Below, one piece after another: positions 31,569 through 52,083 of a stretch of DNA of 64,000 nt. This DNA comes from Phreatobacter aquaticus (GTDB lineage Bacteria; Pseudomonadota; Alphaproteobacteria; Rhizobiales; Phreatobacteraceae), in NCBI RefSeq assembly GCF_005160265.1, contig NZ_CP039865.1, forward strand, positions 1,946,828 through 2,010,827, in the 5' to 3' direction. The position numbers were made by a program, and so were the translations under genes. Numbering within the stretch: position 1 is the first letter of the stretch; every line of letters begins with the position of its first letter. The notes beneath the pieces are model-generated. The model ran no database searches, was not told the origin of the DNA, and saw nothing but the letters and a program-made list of their open reading frames with translations.

Positions 31569-31594
31569 GCCCGCCGCGTCCGAATCGATCGCAT

Positions 31595-31617: not shown

Positions 31618-31655
31618 TAGCCTTCCCGTCTGATCGTCAAACGAAAGCAAATGCC

Positions 31656-32195: not shown

Positions 32196-32198
32196 CCC

Positions 32199-34783: not shown

Positions 34784-36109
34784 TCAGTGCGCCGTCTGCA
34801 TAGCCGCATTGTGCTCGCGGTCAGCCAGAGCGAGGCTCTCGTCCAGGATCGCCAGGAGTTGCTCGGACTCCGCCTCCGAAATGATGAGCGGCGGCGCCAG
34901 AAACAGGGAGATCTGCTCGCCGCTGGTGCCGATCACGGCGCCGGACGCCAGCGCATGGGCCGAGACCCGGGAGGCGATCGGCGCATCGGGGGTATCGGCG
35001 AGCCAGTTCCGCCAGTCGGGGCCATGCAGCTCGATGGTCCAGTGCAGACCCTGGCCGGCAACCCGCGCGACGCTCGGATGGCGTTCGGCGATCTCCTTGA
35101 GCCGGCGGGCATAGAGCCCTTCGAGCGCATGGACGCGCGCCAGCAGGTCTTCGTCGCGGACGATGCCGAGATAGGCCGAGACCGCCGCCATGGCCATGGG
35201 GTGGCCGCGAAGCGTCCCGTAATTCTGCCAGCTCTTGCCGTCGAGCTCGGCCGCCACATCCTTCGACAGCACGATGGCCGCGACCGATACCATGCCGCCG
35301 CCTAGCCCCTTGCCGAGCGTCACGATATCCGGCCGGCTTTTGCCCCCCTGGAAGGCGAAGCCGCGGCCGGCGCGCCCGATGCCGGTCACCACCTCGTCGG
35401 CGATCCAGTAGGCACCTTCGCGCCGCGCGATGGTGGCCACCGCGTCCTGATAGGCGCCGTCGTGGTAGTAGCCGCCCTGCGTGTAATCGAGGATGACCGC
35501 CGCGGAATCGCGGAGCTGTTCCGGAGCGCCGGCAAGGGCCTGGTCCAGCGACGGGCGCGGGCGCATGGCCTCGGTGCCCGACAGATAGACCGCGCCCTCG
35601 GGCGCCGGCAGCACATGAACCGGCGCGCAGGGCGGCGGTACCTTGGTCCCGCCATTCGGCGCGGCAAGGCCGCCATGCCAGTGCGGTTGCACGGTGACGT
35701 CGCGGCTGAGCCCCACAAGCCCGTGATAGGCGCGCTCGCGGGTGGCAATCGCCTTGCGGCCGGTCAGTGCCTGCGACAGCGACAAGGCGACGTCGTTGGC
35801 CTCGCTGCCCGACAGACAGAAGCGCACGGCACCGGCCCAGTGATGCTCGCCGGCAAGGCCGATCTCGAACAGATCCTCCGCCGCCTGGTCGCGGCCCTTC
35901 CAGCTCCAGCCTTCGCTCACCATGGGCAGATCGGCAGCCTTGCGCAGTGCTTCCGCCATCACCGGATGGCCATGGCCGAGCGGTCCGCCGGTATTCGATC
36001 CGTCGAGAACCTTCTGGCCGTTGCTCAGGTGAAAGTGGACGCCCTTGCCACCGACGACCTGGGGCGCCTCGGTGCCGGCATTGAGGCCCGTCCGCAACAG
36101 CCTGCTCAT
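34784..36109 (-). CDS. Class III PLP aminotransferase (GSAM/omega-transaminase-like)
   Basis: A 441-aa fold-type I enzyme: SNGQKVLDGSNTGGPLGHGHP, RFCLSGSEANDVAL, YWIADEVVTGIGRAG with cofactor Asp, and TLGKGLGGG with the Schiff-base Lys. Family members move amino groups between amino acids, beta-alanine-like substrates or glutamate-1-semialdehyde. It lies downstream of a MocR regulator, itself an aminotransferase-domain sensor, suggesting regulation by the aldehyde/amine or PLP state. Exact substrate unknown. Confidence 0.88.
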   Translation of the reverse strand: MSRLLRTGLNAGTEAPQVVGGKGVHFHLSNGQKVLDGSNTGGPLGHGHPVMAEALRKAADLPMVSEGWSWKGRDQAAEDLFEIGLAGEHHWAGAVRFCLSGSEANDVALSLSQALTGRKAIATRERAYHGLVGLSRDVTVQPHWHGGLAAPNGGTKVPPPCAPVHVLPAPEGAVYLSGTEAMRPRPSLDQALAGAPEQLRDSAAVILDYTQGGYYHDGAYQDAVATIARREGAYWIADEVVTGIGRAGRGFAFQGGKSRPDIVTLGKGLGGGMVSVAAIVLSKDVAAELDGKSWQNYGTLRGHPMAMAAVSAYLGIVRDEDLLARVHALEGLYARRLKEIAERHPSVARVAGQGLHWTIELHGPDWRNWLADTPDAPIASRVSAHALASGAVIGTSGEQISLFLAPPLIISEAESEQLLAILDESLALADREHNAAMQTAH

Positions 36110-36206
36110 AGCCTGTGTCCTTGAATGTGAGGGTGCCAGACTACGTCCGCCGGATGGCCTGCGACAGCGCCAGAAGTCACGGCCGTCGGTGGGCCAGATG
36201 CGTCAC

Positions 36207-37709
36207 TCATGCCGGAAACGCGCCGATCACCTGGGCGAGACGCCGATGCGCCTCTTCGGTCGGCAAGCGGCCATAGCCGACCAGCAGCCCCTGGCGGTCG
36301 GGTTCGCCGAGATAGCATTGCGACAGCGGCTGGATGAAATTGCCCGAGCTTCGGCTGAGGTGGGAGGCCTCGCGATCGCTGATGCGGGACGCGAGCGAGG
36401 GCTTGAACAGGGCGGTCAGATGCAGGCCTGCCGGCGTCGGCGGTATCTCCAGTTCATCCGGCAACAGCGCCTGCAAGGCATCGATCACGGCGCGCTGGCG
36501 ATCGCCATAGACCTTCCGCATGCGCCGGAGGTAACGCAAGAGATGGCCCTGGCGCAGAAACTCGGCGAGCGCCGGCTGCGCCGTGCCGGCGGTATGGACG
36601 TCGATCCGGCCGCGGCCTCGCCCAAAGGCCTCAAGAAACTGCGTGCTGGCGACGAGATAGCCGATGCGCAGGCTGGGCAGCATCACCTTCGAGAACGTGC
36701 CGAGATAGACGACGCGCCCCATGCGATCGAGCGACTTCAGCGAGGCCGTCATGCTGTCGCGGTGGCGGAATTCCGAGTTGTAGTCGTCCTCGATGATCCA
36801 GGCGCCGGTGCGGTTGGCCCATTCCAGCAATTCCTGCCGGCGCTCCAGCCCCATGGCGATGCCGAGCGGAAACTGGTGCGACGGTGTCACCACCGCGAGC
36901 TTCGCATTGGGCGCGCGCCGGATGCCCTCGGCGACGCAGAGGCCCTGGTCGTCGACCGGCACCGGCACGAGCTTCGCGCCGGCGGCCTTCAGGCTCCAGC
37001 GTGCCTCGATGAAGCCTGGCTCCTCCACCCACACCTCGTCGCCGGGATCGAGCAACATGCGGCAGCAGAGATCGAGCGCGCCGGAACTGGCGGAGGTGAT
37101 CGCAACCTCCTGCGGGTGGCAGAGCAGGCCGCGCACCGTGCCGAGATATTCGGCGGTCGCCTCGCGCAGTGGCTGCCATCCCAGCGGCGACATGTCGAAC
37201 GAGGCCGAACGCTGCGGATTGCTCCAGGTCTGCCGCAAGAGCCTGGACCAGACATCGAAGGGAAAGCCGGAAATGTCCGGCGTACCCGTCGAGAACGGCG
37301 ATCCCAGATCGAAGTCGTAGGCGGTGTCGAGGACGGAGCGCCAGCGCTGCGACAGCCATTGGTCGTCGGTCGCGGCCGTCGAGGGTGGCGCGGCCGGCCC
37401 CGAGGCGCGGGCGGCTGCCGCCACCTCCACGCCACCGCGCGGCACGGAGCGCAGATAGCCCTCGGAATAGAGCAGGTCGAAGGCGGTGAGCACGATGGCG
37501 CGCGAGCAGCCGAGCTCGGCGGAGAGCTTGCGCGATCCCAGCAGCTTGGTTCCCGCCGGCAGCCTGCCATCGAGGATCTGGTTGCGTAGATGGGCTGCCA
37601 CCTGCTGGTAGAGCGGCAGATCCGAGGCGCGGTCGAGCCCCATCCCGGCCATCGACATACGCTGGCCGGTGGCGCTGGCTTTCCTGGGTCGTGCCGCCGC
37701 CTTTGCCAT
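36207..37709 (-). CDS. MocR/PdxR-type regulator (GntR HTH + aminotransferase domain)
   Basis: A 500-aa regulator. Residues 25-95 are a GntR winged helix (LYQQVAAHLRNQILDGRLPAGTKLLGSRKLSAELG). The rest is a fold-type I aminotransferase domain with ASSGALDLCCRMLLDPGDEVWVEEPGF, EDDYNSEFRH and GTFSKVMLPSLR, where the PLP Lys sits. Start at the ATG at 37709 (GAGGG upstream). It lies between the hydantoinase genes and the aminotransferase gene on the same strand and probably activates one of them using PLP and an amino-compound as signal. Confidence 0.9.
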   Translation of the reverse strand: MAKAAARPRKASATGQRMSMAGMGLDRASDLPLYQQVAAHLRNQILDGRLPAGTKLLGSRKLSAELGCSRAIVLTAFDLLYSEGYLRSVPRGGVEVAAAARASGPAAPPSTAATDDQWLSQRWRSVLDTAYDFDLGSPFSTGTPDISGFPFDVWSRLLRQTWSNPQRSASFDMSPLGWQPLREATAEYLGTVRGLLCHPQEVAITSASSGALDLCCRMLLDPGDEVWVEEPGFIEARWSLKAAGAKLVPVPVDDQGLCVAEGIRRAPNAKLAVVTPSHQFPLGIAMGLERRQELLEWANRTGAWIIEDDYNSEFRHRDSMTASLKSLDRMGRVVYLGTFSKVMLPSLRIGYLVASTQFLEAFGRGRGRIDVHTAGTAQPALAEFLRQGHLLRYLRRMRKVYGDRQRAVIDALQALLPDELEIPPTPAGLHLTALFKPSLASRISDREASHLSRSSGNFIQPLSQCYLGEPDRQGLLVGYGRLPTEEAHRRLAQVIGAFPA

Positions 37710-37742
37710 CCGGTCCCTCGTCAAGGCCTCTGCATGAGCGGA

Positions 37743-39329
37743 TCAGGCCCGGTCAGCCGGATTGCCGAAGCCGCCGCCGCCGCAGCTTTCCAGCGTGACG
37801 AGATCGCCCGCCTTCAGCAGCATGTTGGTCTTGCCGGGGATTGTCTCACTCTTCCCGTCGCGCTCCAGCCGGATCGTGTAGGGCTTGCCGGGCTGGCCAC
37901 CCTTCAGCCCGAAGGTCGGCATCACCGAGCGCTCGACGCAGGTTGTCAGCCACATCGAGGGCGAAAGCACCCGGTAGCTGCGGACCACGCCGTCGCCGCC
38001 GTTGAACTGGCCCTTGCCGCCGGCATCCCGGCGGATCGCCTGCCGCTCGACGCGGATCGCATAATTCGCCTCCACCACTTCGGCAGGCGTGTTCGACGTG
38101 TTGGTGAGATGGACGCGGGTCGCGGGGCAACCGTCGCGGTCGTGCCGGGCGCCTTCGCCGCCGCCATGGACCTCGTAGAACATGCGCCACGATTGATCGG
38201 GCATAGGTTCTGCGAATGCCATCAGTCCTGAGGTAGCCGGTCCGCCGGCCGACAGCCGTTCGGGAATCACATGTTCCATGGCCATGAACACCGCATCGAC
38301 GATGCGCATCGAGGTCTCATGATTGCCGGCGGCGACCGCGGCATTCCAGCCCGGTTCGAAGATCGAGCCGGGGCGGGTGATGATGGTCAGCGGGCGCAAC
38401 GCGCCGGCATTCTGCTGCATGTCGCGGCCGCTCAGGATGCGGGCGGCATAGGCCACAGCCGAGCGCGCGATGAACGGCGTCGTGTTGCAGAAATTGGCGA
38501 TCCGGTCGCTGGAACCCGAGAGGTCGAAGGTCGCCTCGTCGCCTTCGATCTTGATCAGCACATGGATGCGCGCCGGCTCACCGTTCGGCCCGCCATCGTC
38601 GAGGAAATCTTCGCCCTCATAGGTGCCGTCCGGCAACTCGGCGATCGCCGCGCGCATCTCGGCTTCCGAGAGATCGTGCAGGCGCGTCATCGCGGCGATG
38701 AACGTGTCGGTGCCATATTGCGCGCACATCTCGCGGATGCGTCGCTCGGCGGCGGTGGTTGCTGCGAGCTGTGCCATCAGGTCGCCCTCGCAGGAGACGG
38801 GATCGCGCACATTGGCCAGGATGAAGTCGAGTACCGGCTTGTTGATGCCGGCTGCTGTCGTGATCGGCATCGGCGGGATGCGGATCGCCTCCTGGAACGT
38901 GTCGAAGGCTTGCGCCAGATAGCTGCCGGGCCAGGTGCCGCCAACATCGGGCCAATGGGCGAGGCTGAGCGCGAAGGCGGTGAGCTTGCCGTCGACGAAG
39001 ACGGGCCTCGCGACCTTCACGTCATTGAGGTGGTTCCCGCCGAGCGCGCCGACATTGTAGATGATCGCATCGCCCTCCTTCATGTCCGCCGCCGGGCAGA
39101 CCTTGAGGAGTTCCTTGATCGTATAGGCCATGGCGCCGAGATGGATCGGGATGTCGCGGCCCTGGCCGACCAGCCCGCCCTCGGCATCGGTGATCGCCGA
39201 CGACAGGTCGCCGGCCTCGCGCAGCAGCGGCGAGCGCGCCGAACGCGTCATCACCAGGCTCATCTCTTCCGCCGCAGCCGACAGGCCGTGGCGGATCACT
39301 TCGACGACGAAGGGGTCGAGCGTGCTCAT
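37743..39329 (-). CDS. hyuB: Hydantoinase B / oxoprolinase-type beta subunit
   Basis: A 528-aa HyuB subunit starting at the ATG at 39329, which overlaps the HyuA stop (ATGA). Motifs: DPFVVEVIRHGLSAAAEEMSL at the N-terminus, LSSAITDAEGGLVGQGRDIPIHLG, DAIIYNVGALGGNHLNDVKVARPV, GGGEGARHDRDGCP and the glycine-rich end LESCGGGGFGNP. Pairs with HyuA to hydrolyse a cyclic amide/imide or N-methylhydantoin using ATP, or acts as a carboxylase in some family members. The bond acted on cannot be inferred. Confidence 0.92.
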   Translation of the reverse strand: MSTLDPFVVEVIRHGLSAAAEEMSLVMTRSARSPLLREAGDLSSAITDAEGGLVGQGRDIPIHLGAMAYTIKELLKVCPAADMKEGDAIIYNVGALGGNHLNDVKVARPVFVDGKLTAFALSLAHWPDVGGTWPGSYLAQAFDTFQEAIRIPPMPITTAAGINKPVLDFILANVRDPVSCEGDLMAQLAATTAAERRIREMCAQYGTDTFIAAMTRLHDLSEAEMRAAIAELPDGTYEGEDFLDDGGPNGEPARIHVLIKIEGDEATFDLSGSSDRIANFCNTTPFIARSAVAYAARILSGRDMQQNAGALRPLTIITRPGSIFEPGWNAAVAAGNHETSMRIVDAVFMAMEHVIPERLSAGGPATSGLMAFAEPMPDQSWRMFYEVHGGGEGARHDRDGCPATRVHLTNTSNTPAEVVEANYAIRVERQAIRRDAGGKGQFNGGDGVVRSYRVLSPSMWLTTCVERSVMPTFGLKGGQPGKPYTIRLERDGKSETIPGKTNMLLKAGDLVTLESCGGGGFGNPADRA

Positions 39330-41323
39330 GCGGGCCTCCGGGTCAGGAAGAGATTGCCGAGATCGTCGGGCCTTGCCTCCCAACCGGGCGGCAGCACGAC
39401 GGTCGACCAGGCATCCTCGATGATGGCGGGCCCGGCGATCGTGCCGGCCAGCGTCTCGCGGGCGAGCACCTGGGTCTGGACCTCCTTGGCCCCGGCAAAG
39501 ATGCAGGCGCGGCTGCGTCCGGCGACCGGCGGGCGGCCGATATCGGGCCTGGAGAACGGCGTGGACGAGGGCTTCACCGCCTTGATGCGGATGGATTCGA
39601 TCACGCAGGTCTCTTGCGTCGCATAGCCGAAGAGGTCGCGGTGGCGGGCATGGAAATCCGCCTGCAGCTTTGCCGTGTCGAGCGGCACGAAGAAGGGGAT
39701 CGGGATCGAATCCGACTGCGCCGCGTAACGCATCAGCGCGACATGCTCGACTGTGATGTCGGCCTCGGCAATGCCGTTGGCGATCAGCGGCGTGGTGGCT
39801 TCCAGCGTCAGTTCGGCGACGCGCTCCGCGAACAGCTCTGACTGGAAGCCCGCAAGCGACATGCGCACGGTGCGCTGCTGCAGGAACGAGAAATCCGCCG
39901 TCAGGCAGCCGAGCGCTGAGAACGCACTCGAGGCCGCCGGCACGATGATCTCGTTCAGCCCATACATGTCGGCAAGGCCGCTTGCATGCATCGGTCCCCC
40001 GCCGCCGAAGGCGAGCAGCGTACAGTCGCGGCCATCGACGCCGCGCTCCACCGTGACGCGCCGGAGCGCCCGCGCCATAGCGGCATTGGCGACCTGGATG
40101 ATGCCGAGCGCTGTCTCGGCGAGGCCAAGGCCGAGCTTGTCGGCAATGGGCTGGATGGCACGCTTCGAGGCCTCGACATCGATTGTGATCGTGTCGCCGA
40201 GCCGGGCTTCCGGATCGAGATAGCCGAGCACCGCATTGGCGTCGGTGATGGTGGCAGCCGTACCCCCGCGCCCGTAGCAGGCGGGGCCCGGCACGGAGCC
40301 GGCGCTCTTCGGGCCAACCGTCAGCCCGCCCGGCCCGAGATTGACGATGGAGCCGCCGCCCGCACCGATCGAATGGACGGCGAGCATGGGTTGGCGCAGC
40401 GGACGCCCCCCCATCATCCGGGTATCGGTCATCTCGGCGGCGCCATCGACGATCAGGCAGACATCGGTGGTGGTGCCGCCCATGTCGAAGGTCAGCACGC
40501 GCGGGCGCTTCAGGTCACGCGCGATGCGCGCCGAGGCCGAGACGCCGGCCGCCGGTCCCGACATGGCCATGACCAGCGGGCGGCGCTTCACCGCCGGCAG
40601 GGGCACCATGGCGCCGGCCGAATGGAATACCTGGAGGCCCGCGCCGATCGGCAGCCGCTCTTCCAGCTCGGTCAGATACTCGACCGCAATCGGCATGGCC
40701 GCCGCGTTGAATGCCGTCGAAGACGCCCGCTCGTACTCGCGTGCTTCCGGGTTGATCTCGTGGGAGACGCAGACATGCGGCACGGCGCCGGCAATGCGCT
40801 CGGCCAGCAGCTTCTCGTGCGCAGGATTGGCGTAGGAATGGAGCAGGCAGATCGCGACGCTCTGCACGGCGTTGGCCTTCAGCCAGGCGAGCAGGCGCTC
40901 GATCTCGCTTTCCGCCAGCGGTTCCAGCACGGCGCCCGTATGGTCCAGCCGCTCCTTGATGCCGAAGCAGAGCGAGGGCGGCACCAGCGGCGGCGCCTTT
41001 GGCGGGATGTCCAGCCGGTAAAGCTCCTGCCGGCGATAGCGCGCGATCTCCAGCACGTCCTCGAAGCCTGCGGTCGCGACCAGCGCCACGCGCGGCAGGC
41101 GCTCTTCCACTAGCGCGTTGGTGACGCGCGTCGTGCCATGGACGAAGCGCCTGACATCGTCGGCGCCGAGGCCGACAGCCGCCAGCGCTTCCATCATGGC
41201 CTGCACCGGCGCATCGGGCCTGGACGGCACCTTGGCGATGCGGGTCTCATTGGTCCCAGATTTCACGGCAATGATGTCGGTGAACGTGCCGCCGATATCG
41301 GTTCCGATGTCCCACGACCTCAT
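39326..41323 (-). CDS. hyuA: Hydantoinase A / oxoprolinase-type alpha subunit
   Basis: A 665-aa HyuA subunit with an ASKHA ATP-binding fold: WDIGTDIGGTFTDIIAV (phosphate 1) at the N-terminus, TFDMGGTTTDVCLI (phosphate 2) and IGAGGGSIVNLG (adenosine). ATG at 41323 chosen because the homology starts there; the longer frame is not conserved. It couples ATP hydrolysis to hydrolysis of a cyclic substrate together with HyuB. Translationally coupled downstream gene; 417 bp upstream is the dihydropyrimidinase, separated by a palindromic repeat. Confidence 0.92.
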   Translation of the reverse strand: MRSWDIGTDIGGTFTDIIAVKSGTNETRIAKVPSRPDAPVQAMMEALAAVGLGADDVRRFVHGTTRVTNALVEERLPRVALVATAGFEDVLEIARYRRQELYRLDIPPKAPPLVPPSLCFGIKERLDHTGAVLEPLAESEIERLLAWLKANAVQSVAICLLHSYANPAHEKLLAERIAGAVPHVCVSHEINPEAREYERASSTAFNAAAMPIAVEYLTELEERLPIGAGLQVFHSAGAMVPLPAVKRRPLVMAMSGPAAGVSASARIARDLKRPRVLTFDMGGTTTDVCLIVDGAAEMTDTRMMGGRPLRQPMLAVHSIGAGGGSIVNLGPGGLTVGPKSAGSVPGPACYGRGGTAATITDANAVLGYLDPEARLGDTITIDVEASKRAIQPIADKLGLGLAETALGIIQVANAAMARALRRVTVERGVDGRDCTLLAFGGGGPMHASGLADMYGLNEIIVPAASSAFSALGCLTADFSFLQQRTVRMSLAGFQSELFAERVAELTLEATTPLIANGIAEADITVEHVALMRYAAQSDSIPIPFFVPLDTAKLQADFHARHRDLFGYATQETCVIESIRIKAVKPSSTPFSRPDIGRPPVAGRSRACIFAGAKEVQTQVLARETLAGTIAGPAIIEDAWSTVVLPPGWEARPDDLGNLFLTRRPA

Positions 41324-41540
41324 CAGCACGTCTCTCGTCTTCTCGGGCGGCCGCGGCGCCGCGTGGCGCGCAGGCTCGACCCTCAATGGGGTTCACGCCC
41401 ATGAGGAAAGGCGGAACGCTGGCTCAAAGGAAGTGCCAGTTCAAGGGCAAAGACGTGAGCCAGTTGTTGCGGTGCGGCAAAATCAGTGCGTTGCTCCTGT
41501 CCGGTATCGTTTGAGCCCGCTCTTGACCAGGCAGCCCCGA

Positions 41541-41677
41541 CGTCACCCCCGGCGAGCGAAGCGAGGGAAGGGGGTCCAGGAGTCGCTGGCGCAAATCTCT
41601 CCAACTCGGGGATGGCCCGCACCGGGCGGCCCCTGGATCCCCTTCCCTCGACGCTGCGCGTCTCGCCGGGGATGACG
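41541..41677. repeat. REP-like palindromic element C
   Basis: Left arm (41541-41580, CGTCACCCCCGGCGAG...GGGGGTCCAGG) and right arm (41632-41677) are imperfect inverted repeats of about 40-46 bp around a 51-bp spacer, lying in the intergenic gap between HyuA and dihydropyrimidinase. Likely a non-autonomous intergenic repeat of the genome. Confidence 0.75.
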
Positions 41678-41740
41678 GATGTCCTCGCGGGGAGGGTGTG
41701 CTCCGAAGCGATTGCTCGACCGAGCGCCGCGCCTCAATCG

Positions 41741-43123: not shown

Positions 43124-43178
43124 CACCGTCTCCGTGGTTCTCGGACCCTCGGCGTTTAACGAGCGCCACCTCAACGCT

Positions 43179-43273
43179 CGTCATGCCCGGGCTTGTCCCG
43201 GGCATCCACGACTTTGGTTCCGCTCGCTCAAGTGTCGAAGGCGTGGATGCCCGCCACCAGGGCGGGCATGACG
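43179..43273. repeat. REP-like palindromic element A (copy 1)
   Basis: Arms CGTCATGCCCGGGCTTGTCC...(43179-43210) and its complement-like copy ending GCGGGCATGACG (43242-43273) form an inverted repeat with a 31-bp spacer. A second copy is at 51818-51914. It lies between the dihydropyrimidinase and the acyl-CoA dehydrogenase. Confidence 0.85.
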
Positions 43274-43324
43274 TTGGATAGTGCTGTTCAGGTCGTTTCG
43301 GATGTTCCTGAACGCGACCGGCAC

Positions 43325-44467: not shown

Positions 44468-44495
44468 GTCGAACCCTCGCGTCCATCTCGCATCA

Positions 44496-45281
44496 TCATT
44501 TGCCGGTCCAGCGCGGCGGTCTTTTCTCGGCGAAGGCGCGCGGGCCTTCCAGAAAATCGTCGGAGGCGCGCATGCGCTTATGGGCGGGCAGACCCCGCTT
44601 CAGCACCGCGAAGGCCTCGGCATCGGAGAGCGCCTCCACCTCGCGGGTAATCTCCAGCAGCGCCTCGACGGCGAGCGGAGCGCACGAGACGATCTGCGCG
44701 GCAATGGCGCGGGCCTCATCCATCAGCTGGTCGCGCGGCACAATCCGATTGACGAAGCCGAGACGCAGGCCTTCCTCGGCTGAGAGCCGGCGCCCGGTGA
44801 GCAGCAGTTCGGAGGCGATATTGACCGGCAGGCGGCGATGCGCGCGCCACAGGCCGCCGGCTTCCGGAATGAAGCCGCGCTGCAGCTCCGGCAGGGCGAA
44901 TTCGACATGCGGCGCGCAGATGACCAGCGTCGCCATCAGCGAGAACTCGAAGCCCCCGCCGACCGCCAATCCGTTCACCGCCGCGATCACCGGCTTGATG
45001 AGATCGGTGCGCTTCAGGCCCATGAAGCCGTTGGGCCCGAAATTCTCCGAGGTCTCGCCGGCGGCCACCGCCTTCAGGTCCCAGCCTGCCGAGAACATCC
45101 GGTCGCCGGTGGCGGTGACGATGGCGCAGCGCAGTTCCGGCGTGTCGTTCAGGCGGGTGAGCGCCGCGTCGAGATCCTGGCTTGCCTGTTCGTTGAAGGC
45201 ATGGGCCGGCGGGTGGTCGAAGGTGATCTCGAGGACCGGTCCCTTCGCCTCGATCCGGACCCGCGACGGCTGGGCGCTCAT
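44496..45281 (-). CDS. Enoyl-CoA hydratase/isomerase (crotonobetainyl-CoA hydratase CaiD-like)
   Basis: A 261-aa crotonase: SAGWDLKAVAAGE oxyanion region, AVNGLAVGGGFEFSL, LPELQRGFIPEAGGL, with catalytic Glu in the PEAGG stretch. SAGWDLK and the overall layout are closest to CaiD of carnitine metabolism, but the same signature is used for other polar acyl-CoAs. Its ATG overlaps the stop of the upstream acyl-CoA dehydrogenase gene by 4 bp. Confidence 0.88.
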   Translation of the reverse strand: MSAQPSRVRIEAKGPVLEITFDHPPAHAFNEQASQDLDAALTRLNDTPELRCAIVTATGDRMFSAGWDLKAVAAGETSENFGPNGFMGLKRTDLIKPVIAAVNGLAVGGGFEFSLMATLVICAPHVEFALPELQRGFIPEAGGLWRAHRRLPVNIASELLLTGRRLSAEEGLRLGFVNRIVPRDQLMDEARAIAAQIVSCAPLAVEALLEITREVEALSDAEAFAVLKRGLPAHKRMRASDDFLEGPRAFAEKRPPRWTGK

Positions 45282-46435
45282 GCGTGGAACTCCCGCAGCA
45301 CATCCTTCGAGATGATGTCGCGGTGGATTTCGGAAGTACCTTCCCAGATGCGCTCGACGCGGGCATCGCGCCAGAACCGCTCCAGCGGCATGTCCTTGGT
45401 GACACCCATGCCGCCGAGGATCTGAAGCGCGTTGTCCGTCACGCGGCCGACCATTTCCGAGCCGAACAGGTTGACCTGCGAGGCCTCACGCTGGGTGATG
45501 ATGCCGGCATCCATCTTGGCGGCGGCATCCAGAACCATCAGGCGGGTCGCGTGGATCTCGGTCGCCATGTCGGCGAGCTTGAAGGCCGTGCCCTGATATT
45601 GCCCGATGGTCTGGCCGAAGGCCTTGCGGGTATTGGCCCATTGGGCGGCAATGCCCATGGCCCGCTCGGCGAGGCCGACGCAATTGCCGGCGAGCATCAC
45701 GCGGCCGGAAAAGATCCAGCTCTTGGCGATGGCGAAGCCACCGCCTTCCTGTCCAAGGATGTTGCGCGCCGGCACGCGCACGTCCTCGAACGAGATGATG
45801 CAGCTCTTCATGCCGCGGTTCGACAGCACGTCGAGCGGCGTGACCGTGATGCCGGGCGTCGCCTTGTCGACCAAGAGCGCGGTGATCCGCTTCTGCGGTC
45901 CGCGCGGCGTTTCCGCCATGCCGGTCACCGCGAACAGGATGATGAAATCCGCCCGCATCGCCATGGTGATGAACTGCTTGGTGCCGTTGACGATGAAATC
46001 ATCGCCGCGCCGCTCTGCCTTGGTGGTGATGGCGCGGGCGTCGGAGCCGGCGCCCGGCTCGGTCAATGCAAAGCACTCCCAGCGCTCGCCGCGGATCGTC
46101 GGCTTGAGATAGGTCTCGATCTGGTCGCCCTCGCAGGCCTTCAGGATCGGAGCAGGGCGATTGCAGGCCATGGCGAGTGCGCGCGACGTGCGGCCGAACT
46201 CGATCTCGGCGATGCAGCGCTGGCTCGCGCCAAGCCCGCCGCCGCCATATTCCTCCGGCATGTTCAGCGCGTAATAGCCGGCGGCGATCGCCTTGTCCTG
46301 CAGCTCGCGGAACAGGTCGTCGGGCACCGCATCCAGCTTCTCGACGAGGTCCTCGTGCGGCTGCAGCTCCTTCTCGACGAAGCCGCGCACGCCCTCGGCG
46401 ATCATCTTCTGCTCGTCCGTCATCGCAAGACTCAT
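45278..46435 (-). CDS. Acyl-CoA dehydrogenase (CaiA-like)
   Basis: A 385-aa acyl-CoA dehydrogenase: CFALTEPGAGSDARAITTKAERRGDDFIVNGTKQFIT segment, SFEDVRVPARNILGQEGGGFAIAK, C-terminal ERIWEGTSEIHRDIISKDVL. It is the first gene of the minus-strand catabolic operon, overlapping the CaiD-like gene. Upstream lies a 293-bp divergent promoter with an AAAC-N3-GTTTC palindrome at 46504-46514. Confidence 0.92.
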   Translation of the reverse strand: MSLAMTDEQKMIAEGVRGFVEKELQPHEDLVEKLDAVPDDLFRELQDKAIAAGYYALNMPEEYGGGGLGASQRCIAEIEFGRTSRALAMACNRPAPILKACEGDQIETYLKPTIRGERWECFALTEPGAGSDARAITTKAERRGDDFIVNGTKQFITMAMRADFIILFAVTGMAETPRGPQKRITALLVDKATPGITVTPLDVLSNRGMKSCIISFEDVRVPARNILGQEGGGFAIAKSWIFSGRVMLAGNCVGLAERAMGIAAQWANTRKAFGQTIGQYQGTAFKLADMATEIHATRLMVLDAAAKMDAGIITQREASQVNLFGSEMVGRVTDNALQILGGMGVTKDMPLERFWRDARVERIWEGTSEIHRDIISKDVLREFHA

Positions 46436-46501
46436 GGCGAAACCATCCGGTGGCGGTCAATTCTGGCGGGCGATGCAAGATCGCACTGCCGTTTCAATTC
46501 T

Positions 46502-46517
46502 GAAAACGTCGTTTCGA
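46502..46517. promoter_or_regulatory. Candidate IclR operator (AAAC-N3-GTTT)
   Basis: AAAC-GTC-GTTT (46504-46514) within TGAAAACGTCGTTTCGA, in the divergent promoter of the CaiA-like operon and the MaoC/molybdoenzyme operon. The same AAAC-N3-GTTTC pattern is upstream of the ABC transporter operon at 60638-60650. KdgR-type IclR boxes have a related TGAAAC-N3-GTTTCA shape. Confidence 0.45.
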
Positions 46518-46728
46518 CATATGAGCTATCGCCCAAAAGCTGTCAACGCGACGAAACGGTTTGGACGGGCCGTCTCCGGGAGGAGGCGAAAGCGAGCAAA
46601 ACGGCCTCCAGACTGACCCTTTCGCAGCAAGACATCAGCGTTGCGTTTTAATATGTGAGACGGCGTTGCAAAAATGGAAGGGCCATTGCATCCTCGTAGA
46701 CGTGAGATGACCAGCAGCCGGATTCATC

Positions 46729-47577
46729 GTGCCTCTCGACGCTCAGCGCCTCCTTTCCATCGACATGCTACCGCGCTCCGTTGCCTACGGCGACCGCGAA
46801 GCGATGCTTTATGCGCTGGCCGTCGGCCTCGGGCGAACGGGTGGCGATAGCGATCTTCGCTTCGTCTACGAAGACGGCCTCGCCGTCGTGCCGAGCTTCG
46901 CAACCGTTCTCGCCTTTGACGACAGCTGGCTCGCCGATGCGGGTATCGACCTCGCCCATGTCGTTCATGGCGCGCTTGATATTGCGTTCGAACAGCCCTT
47001 CGCGCCGGCGGGCGCCGTTGATGTCGCCTTCAGGATCGCCGGGCTCTCCGACAAGGGCGCCGGCAAGGGCGGACTGGTTCATCAGGAGACCATCCTGAGC
47101 CAGAATGGTGCTGCCGCCTGCACGGTGCTTTCTAGCCTGTTCGTGCGCGGCGGTGGCGGCTTCGGCGGCTCGGTTGGCCGCGACATTCCCTCCGAACGCC
47201 TGCCGGACCGCACGGCCGACGACAGCGTCGTGGTCGAAACCCGCCTCGAGCAGGCGCTGCTGTTCCGCCTGCTCGGCGACCGCAATCCGCTCCATGCCGA
47301 TCCGGCGATCGCCAGGGCCAGCAGCTTCGACCGGCCGATCCTCCATGGCGCCTGCACCTTCGGCATTGCCTGCGCGACCGTGCTGCGTCGCTTCTGCGCC
47401 CTTGATCCCGCCCGGCTCGGCCGTTTCGCAGCCCGCTTCGCCGGCCCGCTCTATCCCGGCGAGACGCTGGGCTTCTCGTTCTGGATCGACGGCGACCGGA
47501 TCGGATTTCGCGCTGTGGCCGTCGAACGCGGCGCCATCGTGCTCGACAACGGCCTCGCCATCGTCAGAGAGGCCTGA
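46729..47577 (+). CDS. MaoC-like hydratase, double hot-dog type
   Basis: A 282-aa protein with two hot-dog halves as in peroxisomal hydratase-2 proteins. The N-terminal half is degenerate; the C-terminal half has LLGDRNPLHADPAIARASSFDRPILHG, with the Asp/Asn-Pro-x-His pair. GTG start at 46729, with no strong ribosome binding site and no clear alternative. It hydrates a trans-2-enoyl-CoA to an (R)-3-hydroxyacyl-CoA, the opposite stereochemistry to crotonases in this region. Adjacent to the molybdoenzyme. Confidence 0.78.
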   Translation: MPLDAQRLLSIDMLPRSVAYGDREAMLYALAVGLGRTGGDSDLRFVYEDGLAVVPSFATVLAFDDSWLADAGIDLAHVVHGALDIAFEQPFAPAGAVDVAFRIAGLSDKGAGKGGLVHQETILSQNGAAACTVLSSLFVRGGGGFGGSVGRDIPSERLPDRTADDSVVVETRLEQALLFRLLGDRNPLHADPAIARASSFDRPILHGACTFGIACATVLRRFCALDPARLGRFAARFAGPLYPGETLGFSFWIDGDRIGFRAVAVERGAIVLDNGLAIVREA

Positions 47578-47589
47578 GGGACAGACCGG

Positions 47590-49905
47590 ATGAGCGCGAG
47601 CGGCACCTATATGCTGACCCATTGGGGCGCCTACCGGGCGCAGACCGTGGGCGGCCGCCTCCTCGCACTGGATCCGCTGGAGACCGACCGGGACCCGTCG
47701 CCCATCGGCGCATCGATCCCCGGCGCGCTCACCGACGGCATGCGCATCACCCAGCCGATGGTGCGCACGTCCTATCTCGACCACGGCCCGGCCTCGCGGG
47801 AGAAGCGTGGCCGCGACACGTTCACGCCGGTCTCATGGGACATTGCGATCAAGCTGGTGTCCGACGAGATCGCCCGCGTCAGGCGCGACCACGGCCATGC
47901 CTCGGTCTTCGGCGGCTCCTATGGCTGGGCGAGCGCCGGCCGCTTCCACCATGCGCTAAGCCAGATCCACCGGTTTCTGAGGCTCGGCGGCGGCTATACC
48001 GATCAGGTCAACACGCACAGCTACGCTGCGGCTGAAGTCTTGCTGCCCCATGTGCTCGGCAGCCGGGACAGCCTGGACGGCAATCACACGCCCTGGGAAC
48101 TGATCATCGGCCACACCGAGCTGTTCGTCGCCTTTGGCGGGCTGCCGCTCAAGAACGCCCAGGTGAGTGCTGGTGGCGTCGGCCATCACAATGTTCGCGA
48201 TCGCCTGATGGCGGCGCGCGCGGCTGGTACCGATTTTGTCAATATCAGCCCGATCGCCGCCGACATGGACCCGGCACTCCAGGCGGAGTGGCTGGCGGTG
48301 AGGCCCAATACCGACACCGCCCTGATGATGGGCCTTGCCCATACGCTGGTCGCCGAGGGCCTGCACGACCGGGCCTTCCTCGACCGCTACACGACAGGCT
48401 TCGACCGTTTCCTGCCCTACCTCATGGGTGAGACCGACGGTCAGCCCAAGAATGCGGACTGGGCCGCCGCCATCACCGGCCTCCCGCCCGAGACCATCCG
48501 CACGCTGGCCCGCCGAATGGCGAAGAGCCGCACGATGATCGCGGTCGCCTGGGCGCTTCAGCGCGCCGACCACGGCGAGCAGCCGCTCTGGATGGCCATA
48601 ACGCTGGCCTGCATGCTCGGCCAGATCGGTCTTCCCGGCGGCGGTTTCGGCTTCGGCTATGGCGGCAGCAACCGCATCGGCACCTCACCCCACGGCTTCT
48701 CCTGGCCGGCGCTGCCGCAGGGCGAGAACCCGATCGATTCCTTCATTCCCGTCGCCCGCGTCGCCGACATGCTGCTCAATCCCGGCGCGCCATTCGACTA
48801 TGACGGGAAGGAATACACCTATCCCGATATCCGGCTGATCTATTGGCTTGGCGGCAACCCGTTCCATCACCAGCAGGACGTGAACAAGCTGATGCAGGCC
48901 TGGCGCCGGCCCGAGACGGTGATCGTCCACGAGCCCTGGTGGAACGCGCTGGCGAAAAACGCCGACATCGTCCTGCCCTGTACCACCTCCTTCGAGCGCA
49001 ATGACCTCGGCATCGCCCGTGGCGAGGCGCATCTCTTCGCCATGCGCCAGGCGGTCGAACCGGTCGGCGAGGCGCGCAGCGACTACACCATTCTCGCCGA
49101 TATCGCCGGCCGTCTCGGCTATGGCCAGACCTTCACCGACGGCCTCGACGAGATGGGCTGGGTGCGCCACCTCTACGCCCTGTCGCGCCAGCGCGCGGCC
49201 GCCAACGACCTGTCGCTGCCCGATTTCGAAACGTTCTGGGAGATGGGCCACGTCCGGCTACCGCCGCCGACCGAGTACCGCAGCCTGTTCCAGTCGTTCC
49301 GCGAAGACCCTTTGGGGCAGCCCCTCGCCACGCCGTCGGGCCGGATCGAGATCTATTCGGAGCGGATTGCCAGCTTTGCCTATGCCGATTGTCCGGGACA
49401 TCCGGTCTGGCTGGAACCGGCGGAATGGCTCGGCAGCCCGGAGACCGCGCGCTTCCCGCTGCACCTGATCTCGAACCAGCCGACGACCCGGCTGCACAGC
49501 CAGTATGACAACGGCGCGGTGAGCCGCGCCTCCAAGATCAGCTGCCGCGAGCCCGTCTCGATCCATCCCGTCGATGCGGCGGCGCGCGGCATTGTCGCGG
49601 GCGATGTGGTGCGCCTGTTCAACGATCGCGGCGCCTGCCTCGCCGGCGTCATCATCACAGAGACCGTCTCGCCCGGTGTCGTCCAGCTATCGACCGGCGC
49701 CTGGTCCGATCCAGACCCCGCGACCGACGACCGGCCGCTCGACCGCCACGGCAACCCCAACGTGCTGACGCTGGATATCGGCACCTCGCGCCTGGCCCAG
49801 GGGCCGATCGCCCACAGCACGCTGGTGGAGATCGAGCGCTTTGCCGGCGAACTGCCGCCGGTCGGCGCCTTCACACCGCCGGTCATCGAGGCTCCGCGCC
49901 CATGA
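47590..49905 (+). CDS. Molybdopterin oxidoreductase, DMSO reductase family (BisC/TorA-like)
   Basis: A 771-aa enzyme with the DMSO-reductase layout. The Mo ligand is a Ser, Ser115 in GGSYGWASAGRFHHA, placing it with DorA/TorA/BisC rather than Cys or Asp types. No N-terminal Cys-x2-Cys iron-sulfur site and no Tat signal (starts MSASGTYMLTHWG), so a cytoplasmic BisC-type reductase of S-oxide or N-oxide groups is likely. It is the second gene of a plus-strand operon with MaoC hydratase, SDR and BKACE, which is an unusual partner set and suggests an oxidised sulfur or nitrogen group in the substrate. Confidence 0.88.
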   Translation: MSASGTYMLTHWGAYRAQTVGGRLLALDPLETDRDPSPIGASIPGALTDGMRITQPMVRTSYLDHGPASREKRGRDTFTPVSWDIAIKLVSDEIARVRRDHGHASVFGGSYGWASAGRFHHALSQIHRFLRLGGGYTDQVNTHSYAAAEVLLPHVLGSRDSLDGNHTPWELIIGHTELFVAFGGLPLKNAQVSAGGVGHHNVRDRLMAARAAGTDFVNISPIAADMDPALQAEWLAVRPNTDTALMMGLAHTLVAEGLHDRAFLDRYTTGFDRFLPYLMGETDGQPKNADWAAAITGLPPETIRTLARRMAKSRTMIAVAWALQRADHGEQPLWMAITLACMLGQIGLPGGGFGFGYGGSNRIGTSPHGFSWPALPQGENPIDSFIPVARVADMLLNPGAPFDYDGKEYTYPDIRLIYWLGGNPFHHQQDVNKLMQAWRRPETVIVHEPWWNALAKNADIVLPCTTSFERNDLGIARGEAHLFAMRQAVEPVGEARSDYTILADIAGRLGYGQTFTDGLDEMGWVRHLYALSRQRAAANDLSLPDFETFWEMGHVRLPPPTEYRSLFQSFREDPLGQPLATPSGRIEIYSERIASFAYADCPGHPVWLEPAEWLGSPETARFPLHLISNQPTTRLHSQYDNGAVSRASKISCREPVSIHPVDAAARGIVAGDVVRLFNDRGACLAGVIITETVSPGVVQLSTGAWSDPDPATDDRPLDRHGNPNVLTLDIGTSRLAQGPIAHSTLVEIERFAGELPPVGAFTPPVIEAPRP

Positions 49906-49987
49906 CATCGGCCCTCATCAACCCGCCGGAGCCAGAACCCGGCAAGCAGAGCATCGGGCGGTCCTTCCGCCCATCAGGAGTGTCTTG

Positions 49988-50770
49988 ATGACCGAGAAGA
50001 CCTATTGGGCGGGAAAGCGCGCCATCGTCACGGCGGGCGCCGCCGGCATCGGCCTGTCCATTGCCGAGGCGCTCCACAAGGAGGGCGTCAAGGTCTGGAT
50101 CTGCGATGTCGCCGCCGACAAGCTGGCTGAGGCCAAGGCGAAGCTGCCGGGTATCGGCGCCGTTGTCTGCGACGTCGCCGATCCGGCAGCCGTTGATAGC
50201 TTCGTCGCCGAGGCCGTGGCCGGCATGGGCGGTCTCGACTTCCTCATCAACAATGCCGGCATTGCCGGTCCTGCCGCGCCCGTCGAGGAAATCTCGACCG
50301 AGGATTGGCTGCGCACCATGGCGATCAACGTCAACGGCCAGTTCTTCGTGGCCCGTGCCGCCGTGCCGCATCTGAAGAAGAACGGCGAAGGCGTCATCGT
50401 CTGCATGGCCTCCGTTGCCGGCAAATATGCCTTCCCGCTCCGCTCGCCCTATGCCAGCTCCAAGGCGGCCGTCATCTCATTCGCGCGCGGCCTGTCGGTC
50501 GAGCTCGGGCCGCACAAGATCCGCGTCAATGCTATCGCGCCGGGCGTGGTCAGCGGCGATCGCATCCAGCGCGTCTTCACCGACCGGGCCAAGACCCGCG
50601 GCATCACCTACGAGGAGATGGAGGCGCTGGCGCTGAAGGCGGTGTCGCTCAAGACCATGGTCGATCCAGAAGAGATCGCCGAGCTCGTCAAGTTCCTTTG
50701 CGCGCCGACCGGTCGCGCCATTACCGGCCAGGTGCTCAGCATCTGCGGCGGCCTCGAATATACCGAATAA
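49988..50770 (+). CDS. Short-chain dehydrogenase/reductase
   Basis: A 260-aa SDR: nucleotide loop TAGAAGIG (15-22), NNAG (88-91), Ser142, Tyr155 and Lys159 (YASSK). It probably oxidises the 3-hydroxy intermediate to a 3-oxo acid. AGGAG lies upstream of the ATG at 49988; the longer frame overlaps the molybdoenzyme and is not conserved. The BKACE gene follows by 11 bp, consistent with 3-oxo product transfer. Confidence 0.92.
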   Translation: MTEKTYWAGKRAIVTAGAAGIGLSIAEALHKEGVKVWICDVAADKLAEAKAKLPGIGAVVCDVADPAAVDSFVAEAVAGMGGLDFLINNAGIAGPAAPVEEISTEDWLRTMAINVNGQFFVARAAVPHLKKNGEGVIVCMASVAGKYAFPLRSPYASSKAAVISFARGLSVELGPHKIRVNAIAPGVVSGDRIQRVFTDRAKTRGITYEEMEALALKAVSLKTMVDPEEIAELVKFLCAPTGRAITGQVLSICGGLEYTE

Positions 50771-50781
50771 GGCGGGCAACC

Positions 50782-51717
50782 ATGGCGAAATCACCGAAAG
50801 TCATCATCACCTGCGCCATCACCGGCGCGACCCATACCCCGACCATGTCGGAATATCTGCCGGTGACGCCCGACGCGATCATCGAGCAGGCGGCGGGTGC
50901 GGCGGAGGCGGGTGCTGCCATCCTCCATCTCCATGCGCGCGACGCCAAGACCAACCGCCCGACCGGCGATCTCGACACCTGGTTCCACATCCTGAAGTCG
51001 CTGAAGGGCCGCACCGACGCCGTCCTCAACATGACGACCGGCGGTTCCACCTACATGTCGATCGAGGAGCGCCTGGCCCCGCCGCTCGCCGCCGAGCCGG
51101 AACTCTGCTCGTGCAATATGGGCTCGATGAACTTCGGCACCTACACGATGATCCCGCGCTACCAGGGCAAGTGGAAGCACGACTGGGAGGAGGGCTATCT
51201 CGAGGCGAGCCGTGGCGCGATCTTCCGCAACACCTTCGCCGATATCGAGACGATCCTGACCAAGCTCGGCGACAAGGGCACCCGCTTCGAGTTCGAGTGC
51301 TATGACGTCGGCCACCTCTACAATCTCGCTCACATGGTGGATCGCGGCCTCGTCAAGCTGCCCATGTTCGTGCAGCTGATCATCGGGACGCTCGGCGGCA
51401 TCGGCGCCGACCCCGAGAACCTGATGTTCATGAAGAAGACCGCCGACAAGCTGTTCGGCGATCAATATCGCTGGTCGGTTCTGGCCGGCGGCCGCAACCA
51501 GATTCCCCGCTGCACCATGTCGGCCTCGATGGGCGGCAATGTGCGTGTCGGCCTGGAGGACAGCCTCTATGCCGGGCCGGGCCGGCTCGCCACCTCCAAT
51601 GCCGAGCAGGTGACGATGATCCGCAAGATCATCGAGGACCTGAGCCTGGAGGTCGCAAGCCCCGACGAGGCGCGCGCGATGCTCGGGCTGAAGGGCAAGG
51701 ACAAGGTGGCGTTCTGA
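50782..51717 (+). CDS. Beta-keto acid cleavage enzyme (DUF849/BKACE)
   Basis: A 311-aa TIM-barrel enzyme with the Zn pair in ILHLHARD (His49, His51), Glu region ECYDVGHL and C-terminal GLEDSLYAGPGRLATSNAEQV-type block. BKACEs condense a 3-keto acid with acetyl-CoA to give acetoacetate and a new acyl-CoA. Substrates include 3-keto-5-aminohexanoate and dehydrocarnitine; the polar residues that choose between them cannot be read here. Directly after the SDR. Confidence 0.92.
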   Translation: MAKSPKVIITCAITGATHTPTMSEYLPVTPDAIIEQAAGAAEAGAAILHLHARDAKTNRPTGDLDTWFHILKSLKGRTDAVLNMTTGGSTYMSIEERLAPPLAAEPELCSCNMGSMNFGTYTMIPRYQGKWKHDWEEGYLEASRGAIFRNTFADIETILTKLGDKGTRFEFECYDVGHLYNLAHMVDRGLVKLPMFVQLIIGTLGGIGADPENLMFMKKTADKLFGDQYRWSVLAGGRNQIPRCTMSASMGGNVRVGLEDSLYAGPGRLATSNAEQVTMIRKIIEDLSLEVASPDEARAMLGLKGKDKVAF

Positions 51718-51914: not shown

Positions 51915-51958
51915 CACGTGAGGTGAGACGTCTTCGCCTAGCTTTCTCGCACTCCATC

Positions 51959-52083
51959 CTGACCTCATCCTGAGGTGCGAGGCGAAGCCGAGCTCGAAGG
52001 ACCATTGCTCTCCGCCGGCGGAAAGGCGTCCTTCGAGACACGTTCGGCTGACGCCTCACGTGCACCTCAGGATGAGGTCAGGA
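51959..52083. repeat. REP-like palindromic element B
   Basis: CCTGACCTCATCCTGAGGTGC at 51959-51979 and GCACCTCAGGATGAGGTCAGG at 52062-52083 are near-perfect inverted arms; inner arms CTCGAAGGAC and GTCCTTCGAG also pair. A second repeat family typical of Rhizobiales intergenic regions. Confidence 0.85.

Follow-up and report, generated by a model that had tools for sequence, protein, structure and literature searches.

The question raised by this locus of Phreatobacter aquaticus is whether its ring-opening enzymes and its acyl-CoA enzymes belong to one catabolic system, and on which compound such a system could act. All coordinates refer to the window, i.e. the whole stretch of 64,000 nt of contig NZ_CP039865.1 that was analysed, and gene families were assigned by hmmscan with Pfam and with curated TIGR/NCBIfam models that carry cut-offs. 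An earlier note, covering positions 34784-51717, had described two divergent operons combining both kinds of enzymes. Every enzyme type that it named was found by hmmscan in the window, and most lie in that interval; one crotonase (54271-55047), one MaoC hydratase (52128-52580), the CoA ligase (52577-54274) and the N-carbamoylase (61902-63200) fall outside. Its list, correct for the enzymes, had omitted a BisC/DMSO-reductase-like molybdoenzyme, a MocR regulator, a Dpp-type transporter with its binding protein and an IclR regulator.

The region is two units side by side, not one. Unit B (41.7-63.2 kb) contains a hydantoinase, two acyl-CoA dehydrogenases, a crotonase, two MaoC hydratases, an SDR, a BKACE, a CoA ligase, a Dpp-type ABC transporter, the IclR regulator and an L-carbamoylase. 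Unit A contains HyuA/HyuB, MocR and a class III aminotransferase. The arrangement as two divergent operons is doubtful, as the minus-strand set is broken between the units by a 354-bp gap with a hairpin (41562-41650, 25-nt arms, 88% complementary), and its two parts differ in ancestry and probably in regulator. Our main reading, to which we assign a probability of roughly 60%, is that of a composite, in which a rare catabolic unit B for a cyclic-urea carboxylic acid stands beside an older resident unit A.

In the case of unit A, the genes lie on the minus strand. HyuA (39326-41386) was found in 10 of 11 congeners at 79-87%, one copy being partial and at a contig end. HyuB (37743-39383), identified by hmmscan, also occurs at the congener loci, and the MocR-type regulator (36207-37724) and the class III aminotransferase (34784-36109) reach 86% and 87%, respectively, in congeners G005 and G011. 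These are the two, among the seven congeners whose locus was read, that carry a crotonase, the aminotransferase and MocR beside HyuAB. Their order, transporter ... HyuA HyuB MocR aminotransferase, is that of the window, where the unit B block lies between. Judged from these comparisons, unit A would be an older system resident in the genus, with MocR as its own regulator. Like the caprolactamase CapA/CapB and other HyuA/HyuB enzymes, it has both subunits, which unit B is without; an assignment to CapA/CapB was rejected (NF050156 and NF050157, with 435.6 and 245.7 bits; the cut-off is 1000 for each).

Units A and B were never found together in the other genomes searched. No unit B hydantoinase was detected in the HyuA-bearing congeners (11 congeners searched), and the three other genomes with unit B offer only distant HyuA matches (37-40% at best). 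The co-occurrence of the genes, set in advance as a check of the earlier proposal, thus failed for the whole set among the genomes searched, and a single unit joining HyuA/HyuB, MocR and the aminotransferase with the CoA enzymes is not supported. What proved to be real is a CoA-type catabolic set of undescribed substrate that goes with ring-opening enzymes; its CoA ligase, crotonase, dehydrogenases, hydratases, SDR and BKACE stand together in another genome too.

Unit B was found here in four genomes, three of them MAGs. The Methylobacteriaceae MAG has 16 unit B genes in the order of the window, and since both the genes and their order recur, the assembly is not due to chance. Two betaproteobacterial MAGs carry most of the genes. 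In the Kiruna MAG no close BKACE was found across the whole assembly (best 32%) and the SDR was not seen on the cluster contig; in the Ja MAG the M20 gene was not seen, and the contigs end there. The betaproteobacterial clusters (L066 and L067 only, two of four) carry an additional methionine-gamma-lyase-like enzyme of the Cys/Met-metabolism PLP family (PF01053, E 3.6e-134). Its nearest structures are methionine gamma-lyase and cystathionine gamma-lyase, and it stays under the cut-off of every NCBIfam model among the matches listed (25 of 62). Relatives in the two alphaproteobacterial genomes reach 33-40% only. As a whole, unit B looks like a rare, horizontally scattered gene set.

Regarding the ring-opening enzymes, the unit B hydantoinase/dihydropyrimidinase (41741-43174, minus strand) scores 448.5 bits with TIGR02033 (cut-off 393.25), with orthologs at 72% and 65%. 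H77, H79, K168, Y173, H202, H258, S305, D332 and N353 are invariant in three orthologs; this would fit H77, H79, K168, H202, H258 and D332 as putative two-metal ligands, including the carboxylated lysine, and Y173, S305 and N353 as putative ring-binding residues. The M20 N-carbamoyl-L-amino-acid hydrolase (plus strand) scores 383.7 bits with TIGR01879 and its L066 ortholog 349.2 bits, both over the cut-off of 204. Its nearest solved structure is 3n5f, an N-carbamoyl-L-amino acid hydrolase, and the score for this enzyme (274 bits) exceeds those for allantoate amidohydrolase (222) and for N-carbamoyl-beta-alanine amidohydrolase (182).

The acyl-CoA enzymes are similarly conserved. Acyl-CoA dehydrogenase 1 (43325-44467, minus strand, assigned by Pfam; orthologs 82% and 75%) shows GGGTSEI and E243 in LDYER, identical in all four orthologs and presumably the isovaleryl/long-chain-type arrangement of the catalytic base. 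Acyl-CoA dehydrogenase 2 (45278-46435, minus; 79% and 70%) shows WEGTSEI, kept in three of three orthologs, and a short-chain-type catalytic base. Between them lies crotonase 1 (44496-45281, minus; 70% and 65%), best matched by crotonobetainyl-CoA hydratase, under the family cut-off. On the plus strand follow a two-domain MaoC (hotdog) hydratase (46729-47577; 62% and 54%), the SDR (49988-50770; 74% and 58%) and the BKACE (50782-51717; 82% and 65%). The last belongs to the 3,5-dioxohexanoate-type family (NF053538, 522.6 bits, cut-off 430) and falls under the cut-off for 3-keto-5-aminohexanoate cleavage enzyme (NF052387, 225.7 against 382), so that the earlier proposal, in which the BKACE cleaves an amino or imino acid, is not favoured. 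On the minus strand, the start of the single-domain MaoC hydratase (75% and 67%) overlaps the stop of the AMP-forming acyl-CoA ligase, whose subfamily also occurs in each of the other three genomes with unit B. Crotonase 2 (minus), 74% to congener G005 and a relative of the unit A crotonase, was not seen at any other cluster of unit B. The Dpp/Opp-type transporter with two ATPases and two permeases (55044-58900, minus) is 67-79% to the Methylobacteriaceae cluster, and the family 5 solute-binding protein (58948-60633, minus) 77% to that MAG and 47% to the unit A congeners.

Within the MaoC-SDR-BKACE operon lies a BisC-like molybdenum S/N-oxide reductase of 771 aa (47590-49905, plus strand). It narrowly misses TIGR00509 (997.5 bits, cut-off 1017.55), and with identities of 39.8% to E. 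coli BisC, 41.6% to TorA and 39.6% to TorZ it is no nearer to BisC than to the other two, so it was not taken as BisC proper. No Tat signal was seen at its N-terminus. The gene was not found at the three other unit B clusters and has no close copy in the betaproteobacterial MAGs; the Methylobacteriaceae MAG has a 45% copy on a contig other than that of the cluster.

The IclR-family regulator of unit B (60902-61870, minus strand) has an ortholog at 69% whose alignment begins at residue 73, and its true start is probably near 61654. Its identity to the betaproteobacterial IclR is 37-38% only. Candidate operators were scored with a main matrix built from five sites of two of the other unit B genomes and a second one from two betaproteobacterial sites; 20 Markov sequences served as background, with score maxima of 10.4-15.2. 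With the main matrix, three unit B promoter sites rank 1-3 among approximately 64,000 window positions (19.6, 17.8 and 14.7): site 3 (60635-60653, upstream of the binding protein), site 2 (46654-46672) and the IclR/KdgR-type site 1 (46500-46518), the latter two in the divergent promoter region. Of the 20 Markov sequences, 3 contained a score above the 14.7 of site 1. The same sites lead with the betaproteobacterial matrix, narrowly (sites 1, 3 and 2 with 13.5, 13.2 and 13.0; next 12.9). In the reverse search, first place went to the ACAD2 promoter in L066 and to the IclR/MaoC promoter in L083, and the second L066 site ranked fourth only; the third L085 site was absent from the top six with the betaproteobacterial matrix. 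Since the matrix sites were picked by eye after promoter comparison, the ranking is not a wholly independent test. No operator-like site precedes HyuA in the window scanned with both matrices. From the sites shared between genomes we infer that unit B is probably controlled by IclR and that its operons are probably switched on together.

From the observed gene content, conservation and family scores we infer the following substrate type and order of steps. The Dpp-type transporter would import a cyclic-urea carboxylic acid, which the CoA ligase would activate. Chain shortening would fall to the two dehydrogenases, which differ in mechanistic type, and to crotonase, MaoC hydratases, SDR and BKACE; the BKACE would stand in for a thiolase and use acetyl-CoA as its co-substrate. 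The nitrogen-bearing part would arrive at the hydantoin or N-carbamoyl stage; the hydantoinase would open the ring and the M20 L-carbamoylase free an L-alpha-amino acid. In the betaproteobacterial clusters this amino acid would pass to the methionine-gamma-lyase-like enzyme.

The combination of cyclic urea, thioether and acyl chain functions suggests biotin. Bacterial degradation of biotin was described by classical biochemistry decades ago, with beta-oxidation of the side chain to bisnor- and tetranorbiotin, and with sulfoxides. The classical route is known as chemistry, and the unit B enzymes could between them act on the acyl chain, the cyclic urea, the thioether and the sulfoxide. Here, the CoA ligase and the beta-oxidation enzymes would strip the valerate chain. 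On tetranorbiotinyl-CoA, an acyl-CoA dehydrogenase and a hydratase would hydrate the carbon bearing the ureido nitrogen, and opening of the ureido ring would give a cyclic beta-keto thioester. The thiolane ring would then be opened by retro-Claisen cleavage, and the freed ureido group would close to a hydantoin, from which hydantoinase and L-carbamoylase would release S-carboxymethylcysteine. The lyase would split this into pyruvate, ammonia and thioglycolate, and the window molybdoenzyme would recycle biotin sulfoxide. Biotin or a close derivative is our best single guess for the substrate, and a tentative one. A literature search found no bacterial gene set for biotin breakdown, nor one like unit B; that unit B is the first for complete breakdown, with each step a proposal, is likewise put forward tentatively.

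Could both units instead serve one pathway, with HyuA/HyuB and the hydantoinase opening one substrate's ring, the aminotransferase removing the amine and the CoA enzymes finishing? All genes adjoin in the window, which keeps the gene order of G005 and G011, and crotonase 2, MocR and the aminotransferase go with HyuAB in these two of the seven loci read. Moreover, 7 of the 11 congeners have a CoA ligase of the unit B subfamily close to HyuAB. Against this stand the separation of the units in all other genomes examined, the HyuA promoter without an operator-like site, the hairpin-bearing gap and the separate MocR regulator, and we regard one pathway as unlikely. As the ligase subfamily is common to A and B, the units probably handle related compounds.

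Two further readings concern the substrate of unit B. Hydantoinase and carbamoylase are a standard pair, and a hydantoin or pyrimidine with a side chain, other than biotin, is possible but rather unlikely; examples would be a 5-substituted pyrimidine or a hydantoin acid derived from histidine or ergothioneine. By family names, ErtD/ErtE of ergothioneine utilisation likewise place a carbamoylase after a hydantoin-opening enzyme, and the M20 enzyme reaches 384.9 bits with ErtE; yet this is below the cut-off of 520 (NF058540), as is the hydantoinase with ErtD (NF058539, 231.7 against 650), and neither was accepted as such. To our knowledge, ergothioneine utilisation has no counterpart to the unit B CoA enzymes, and histidine- or ergothioneine-hydantoin and pyrimidine routes have no need for CoA ligase, dehydrogenases and BKACE. 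Hydantoinase-family enzymes can also act as imidases. A cyclic imide or lactam acid, opened by an imidase-like hydantoinase and a half-amide hydrolase, would suit the beta-oxidation genes, then acting on a dicarboxylate; but the M20 enzyme passes the cut-off of the hydantoinase/carbamoylase family and comes closest to an L-carbamoylase, and the C-S-lyase-family enzyme would have no obvious role. We consider this quite improbable.

Compared to hydantoin utilisation by a D/L-hydantoinase and an N-carbamoyl-L-amino-acid hydrolase, unit B has both enzymes over curated cut-offs, and adds CoA ligase, two acyl-CoA dehydrogenases, hydratases, SDR, BKACE and a shared operator-like site. A module of SDR and BKACE is reportedly part of a deoxyribonate pathway. 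The two are also adjacent in the phloroglucinol pathway (TfD/TAL, PMC10470551), whereas in unit B ureide and acyl-CoA enzymes accompany them. Among the annotated genes of the window, none for phloroglucinol was noticed.

In conclusion, unit B is a defined, rare and probably co-regulated set that joins hydantoin and acyl-CoA chemistry, with orthologs in two proteobacterial classes. A few purified enzymes would be enough to approach the biotin question directly. Should the substrate be another compound, unit B would still be an undescribed route for an apparent cyclic-urea acid, tied to a genus-wide HyuAB system by the CoA ligase subfamily common to both.

Gene calls and profile scans confirmed that the enzymes named by the earlier note are present in the window. 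Additionally, genes absent from its list were identified: a MocR regulator (36207-37724), a BisC-like molybdoenzyme (47590-49905), a Dpp-type ABC transporter with a family 5 binding protein (55044-60633) and an IclR regulator adjoining the M20 carbamoylase (60902-61870). That note had taken the catabolic genes as one region. The catabolic set stands as real, but the distribution of HyuA versus that of the hydantoinase indicates that a resident operon of separate ancestry (unit A, with HyuA/HyuB, MocR and the class III aminotransferase) had been joined to the hydantoinase and CoA-type set (unit B, 41.7-63.2 kb). A further stretch of the window (30552-34768) is probably a separate cassette. Beside a RuBisCO-like protein, it encodes a DctP-type binding protein, a member of the glyoxalase family and a sugar-acid kinase with similarity to 3-oxo-isoapionate kinase (319.5 bits, cut-off 700). 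A 1097-aa biotin-dependent acyl-CoA carboxylase (20124-23417) combines biotin carboxylase, biotin carrier and carboxyltransferase domains in a single chain.

To find unit B in other organisms, 84,980 species genomes were scanned with the hydantoinase protein, using an exact seed match by which distant orthologs can be missed. This gave 23 stretches, four of them encoding a relative. The relatives were found in a Methylobacteriaceae MAG (72% identity) and in two uncultured betaproteobacterial MAGs, Kiruna and Ja (65%); a 25% match (L068) was set aside as non-orthologous. When the window proteins were compared by tblastn with these loci and further contig sequence, the Methylobacteriaceae MAG showed 16 genes in the same order as the window: M20, IclR, binding protein, DppBCDF, CoA ligase, MaoC / BKACE, SDR, two-domain MaoC / ACAD2, crotonase, ACAD1, hydantoinase, where ACAD1 and ACAD2 are the acyl-CoA dehydrogenases. 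The molybdoenzyme, the second crotonase, HyuAB, MocR and the aminotransferase were not found by tblastn in this cluster. In the case of the betaproteobacterial MAGs, most unit B genes are present, in differing orders and spread across several contigs, and the best BKACE match anywhere in the Kiruna assembly was only 32%. Both carry a CobW GTPase and, between ACAD1 and the hydantoinase, a Cys/Met-type PLP enzyme whose two copies are 95% identical. Paralogous SDR-BKACE loci exist in the window's genome and in the Methylobacteriaceae MAG (L117:9657-18243 and L118), where a second BKACE (60%) is accompanied by an SDR that shares 49-50% identity with the window's, and by unrelated ABC ATPases.

The rarity of unit B was also seen in large genome searches, in which the best few candidates per genome were scored (e.g. 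the best 4 of 20), so that a lower-ranked ortholog could be missed. Among the best candidates from 397 genomes of the order, with the window's own counted in, the window's hydantoinase scored 1062 bits and the best match elsewhere 349 bits (44% identity). On the same basis, 39 of 148 relatives of G398, one of the other unit B genomes, matched at E 1e-100, and above 386 bits only G398 itself (938 bits) and G399, another unit B genome (517 bits, interrupted by a contig end), were left. At E 1e-118, the best candidates gave a match only in G397, the remaining unit B genome, among 198 of its relatives, and only in the window's own genome among 398 genomes of the phylum. On plasmids the top hydantoinase match was 42.5%, and searches there with the two-domain MaoC, the hydantoinase, the molybdoenzyme, ACAD1 and the betaproteobacterial lyase turned up nothing close: each plasmid record stayed below 60% identity at its best position. 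Other genomes of the order gave 29 hydantoinase loci, seen with short flanks; 11 of them had other unit genes at 37% identity or less, and none resembled unit B.

Unit A follows a different distribution. HyuA is 79-87% identical in 10 of 11 congeners (one match partial at a contig end) and 50% in the eleventh, and the unit B hydantoinase was not found among the best candidates of those ten. Conversely, the three other unit B genomes have HyuA relatives of only 32-40% identity, the best per genome being 37-40%. The two-part gene set envisaged by the earlier note thus did not recur in the genomes searched: ten congeners hold unit A's HyuA without the unit B hydantoinase, and the three unit B genomes lack a close HyuA. 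For seven congeners most of the locus was read (G002, G005, G006, G007, G009, G010 and G011) and for G001 a 4.4-kb part, with G003, G004 and G008 outside the reading. G005 and G011 share one gene order: transporter, HyuA, HyuB, MocR, aminotransferase, crotonase, CoA ligase. The other five have HyuAB with a flavoprotein, with a CoA ligase between them in three, and a transporter lies opposite this set in all four whose stretch extends that far. The flavoprotein (about 479 aa, Pyr_redox/K-oxygenase-like; L139:5952-7391 and relatives in L150-L153) was not found at the window locus and had no NCBIfam match at E 1e-20. HyuAB as a caprolactamase was ruled out on family profile scores. A possible further cyclic-urea locus occurs in G255, from another family of the order. 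There, L145 and L155 hold HyuA and HyuB along with a Dpp-type transporter, a class III aminotransferase, an SDR, a hydantoinase of 36% identity, a flavin reductase, a flavoprotein and a protein that among NCBIfam models matches N-carbamoylputrescine amidase best, at 131.6 bits against a cut-off of 410.

The two units nevertheless meet in the CoA ligase. In 7 of the 11 congeners, HyuA has a ligase of the window's subfamily (59-65%) no more than 7 kb away, and the three other unit B genomes all encode one too. A search at E 1e-100 found a single copy in each of these genomes apart from G398, where there is a second at 47%. Two unit A copies are 65% and three unit B copies 60-63% identical to the window's, thus about equally distant. 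Because both units have the same ligase type, they would probably act on one substrate class. The window locus itself looks like a mosaic, in which the transporter belongs with unit B (binding protein 77% vs 47%) and crotonase 2 with unit A (74%).

Regarding regulation, palindromes like TGAAAC-nnn-GTTTCA lie in the divergent promoter region 46436-46728 and upstream of the binding protein. These sites were first picked by eye, which weakens the rank test. A matrix from five sites in two other unit B loci (L085 and L066) placed 60635 (19.6), 46654 (17.8) and 46500 (14.7) as the top three of the window. The maxima of 20 Markov sequences of the same length were 10.4-15.2, and three exceeded 14.7, so that site 46500 alone would not stand out. 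A two-site betaproteobacterial matrix returned the identical top three by a narrow margin (13.5, 13.2, 13.0; next 12.9) and, in L085, two of three chosen sites within the top six. The matrix from the window and L085 ranked first the ACAD2 promoter in L066 and the IclR/MaoC promoter in L083, the Ja MAG locus; the second site picked in L066 came fourth. Between the window and the betaproteobacteria, the IclR proteins share only 37-38% identity. As a whole, unit B is probably one regulon. In the Ja MAG this may be wider, as the second-best site of L083 (9172-9190, score 12.1; region 7221-9190) has BKACE on one side and, on the other, a flavin amine oxidase next to an ABC transporter. No operator-like site precedes HyuA among the 25 best window positions of the L085 and L066 matrix. 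In five unit A stretches from four congeners the top scores ranged from 7.6 to 10.3; L142 alone went higher, at 13.5, in a place beyond the operon. The 10.3 site, found in L154 some 0.7 kb ahead of the unit A binding protein, does not rise above background. Inheritance of the whole region as one unit was rejected on the HyuA and hydantoinase distributions in the genomes searched, the congener loci and the operator-like sites. The gap between hydantoinase and HyuA is 354 bases and contains a hairpin with 25-nt arms. Two unlike long-arm intergenic palindromic elements (41541-41677 and 51957-52083; one 22-nt pair perfectly complementary) are possibly mobile repeats or terminators.

At the protein level, the hydantoinase scores above the TIGR02033 cut-off, and the residues that by the usual numbering would hold its metals and ring are invariant across three orthologs. 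The nearest structures to M20 are N-carbamoyl-L-amino acid hydrolase (3n5f, 274 bits), allantoate amidohydrolase (222) and N-carbamoyl-beta-alanine amidohydrolase (182), a ranking that favours the hydantoin/alpha-amino-acid arm over the dihydropyrimidine arm. For ACAD2, all three orthologs compared retain a catalytic Glu of the short-chain type (WEGTSEI). In ACAD1, GGGTSEI occurs with a Glu in LDYER (4 of 4), an arrangement of the isovaleryl/long-chain type. Since the catalytic types differ, two different desaturations are likely, judging from these motifs. The BKACE lies above the 3,5-dioxohexanoate family cut-off and below that of the 3-keto-5-aminohexanoate family, whose amine-binding Glu14 is replaced in a triacetate enzyme, according to PMC10470551. 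The best family of the molybdoenzyme is BisC-type, 20 bits below the curated cut-off; BisC proper was rejected, as identity to E. coli BisC (39.8%), TorA (41.6%) and TorZ (39.6%) is much alike. For the mechanism class of unit B we estimate a probability of roughly 0.6.

Each group of genes points to one substrate feature: a cyclic urea from the hydantoinase with the L-carbamoylase, a thioether amino acid from the lyase family, an acyl chain from the CoA genes and a sulfoxide from the molybdoenzyme. All four are present in, or readily formed by, biotin. To our knowledge, biotin is the only nameable common natural acid combining cyclic urea, thioether and acyl chain. Its ring opening in the proposed pathway would follow our own chemical proposal. 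Counting against biotin, the lyase is confined to two of the four clusters; the molybdoenzyme, seen in one of four, shows no special likeness to BisC; and hydantoinases do not ordinarily act on cyclic ureas. Biotin is a possible substrate, though less likely than not. Bisnorbiotin, tetranorbiotin and their sulfoxides are listed as biotin metabolites in PMC10670868, and biotin sulfoxide is readily formed by biotin oxidation according to PMC9123166. The ergothioneine route was ruled out on family profile scores. A limited literature search found no paper describing bacterial genes that degrade biotin, or unit B's enzyme combination: the excerpt of PMC9482736 has no biotin degradation genes, and the Candida cluster of PMC2880306 concerns biosynthesis in the part of the text available, though its abstract says catabolism. 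Altogether, unit B is a real, rare and conserved catabolic gene set for an undescribed substrate.
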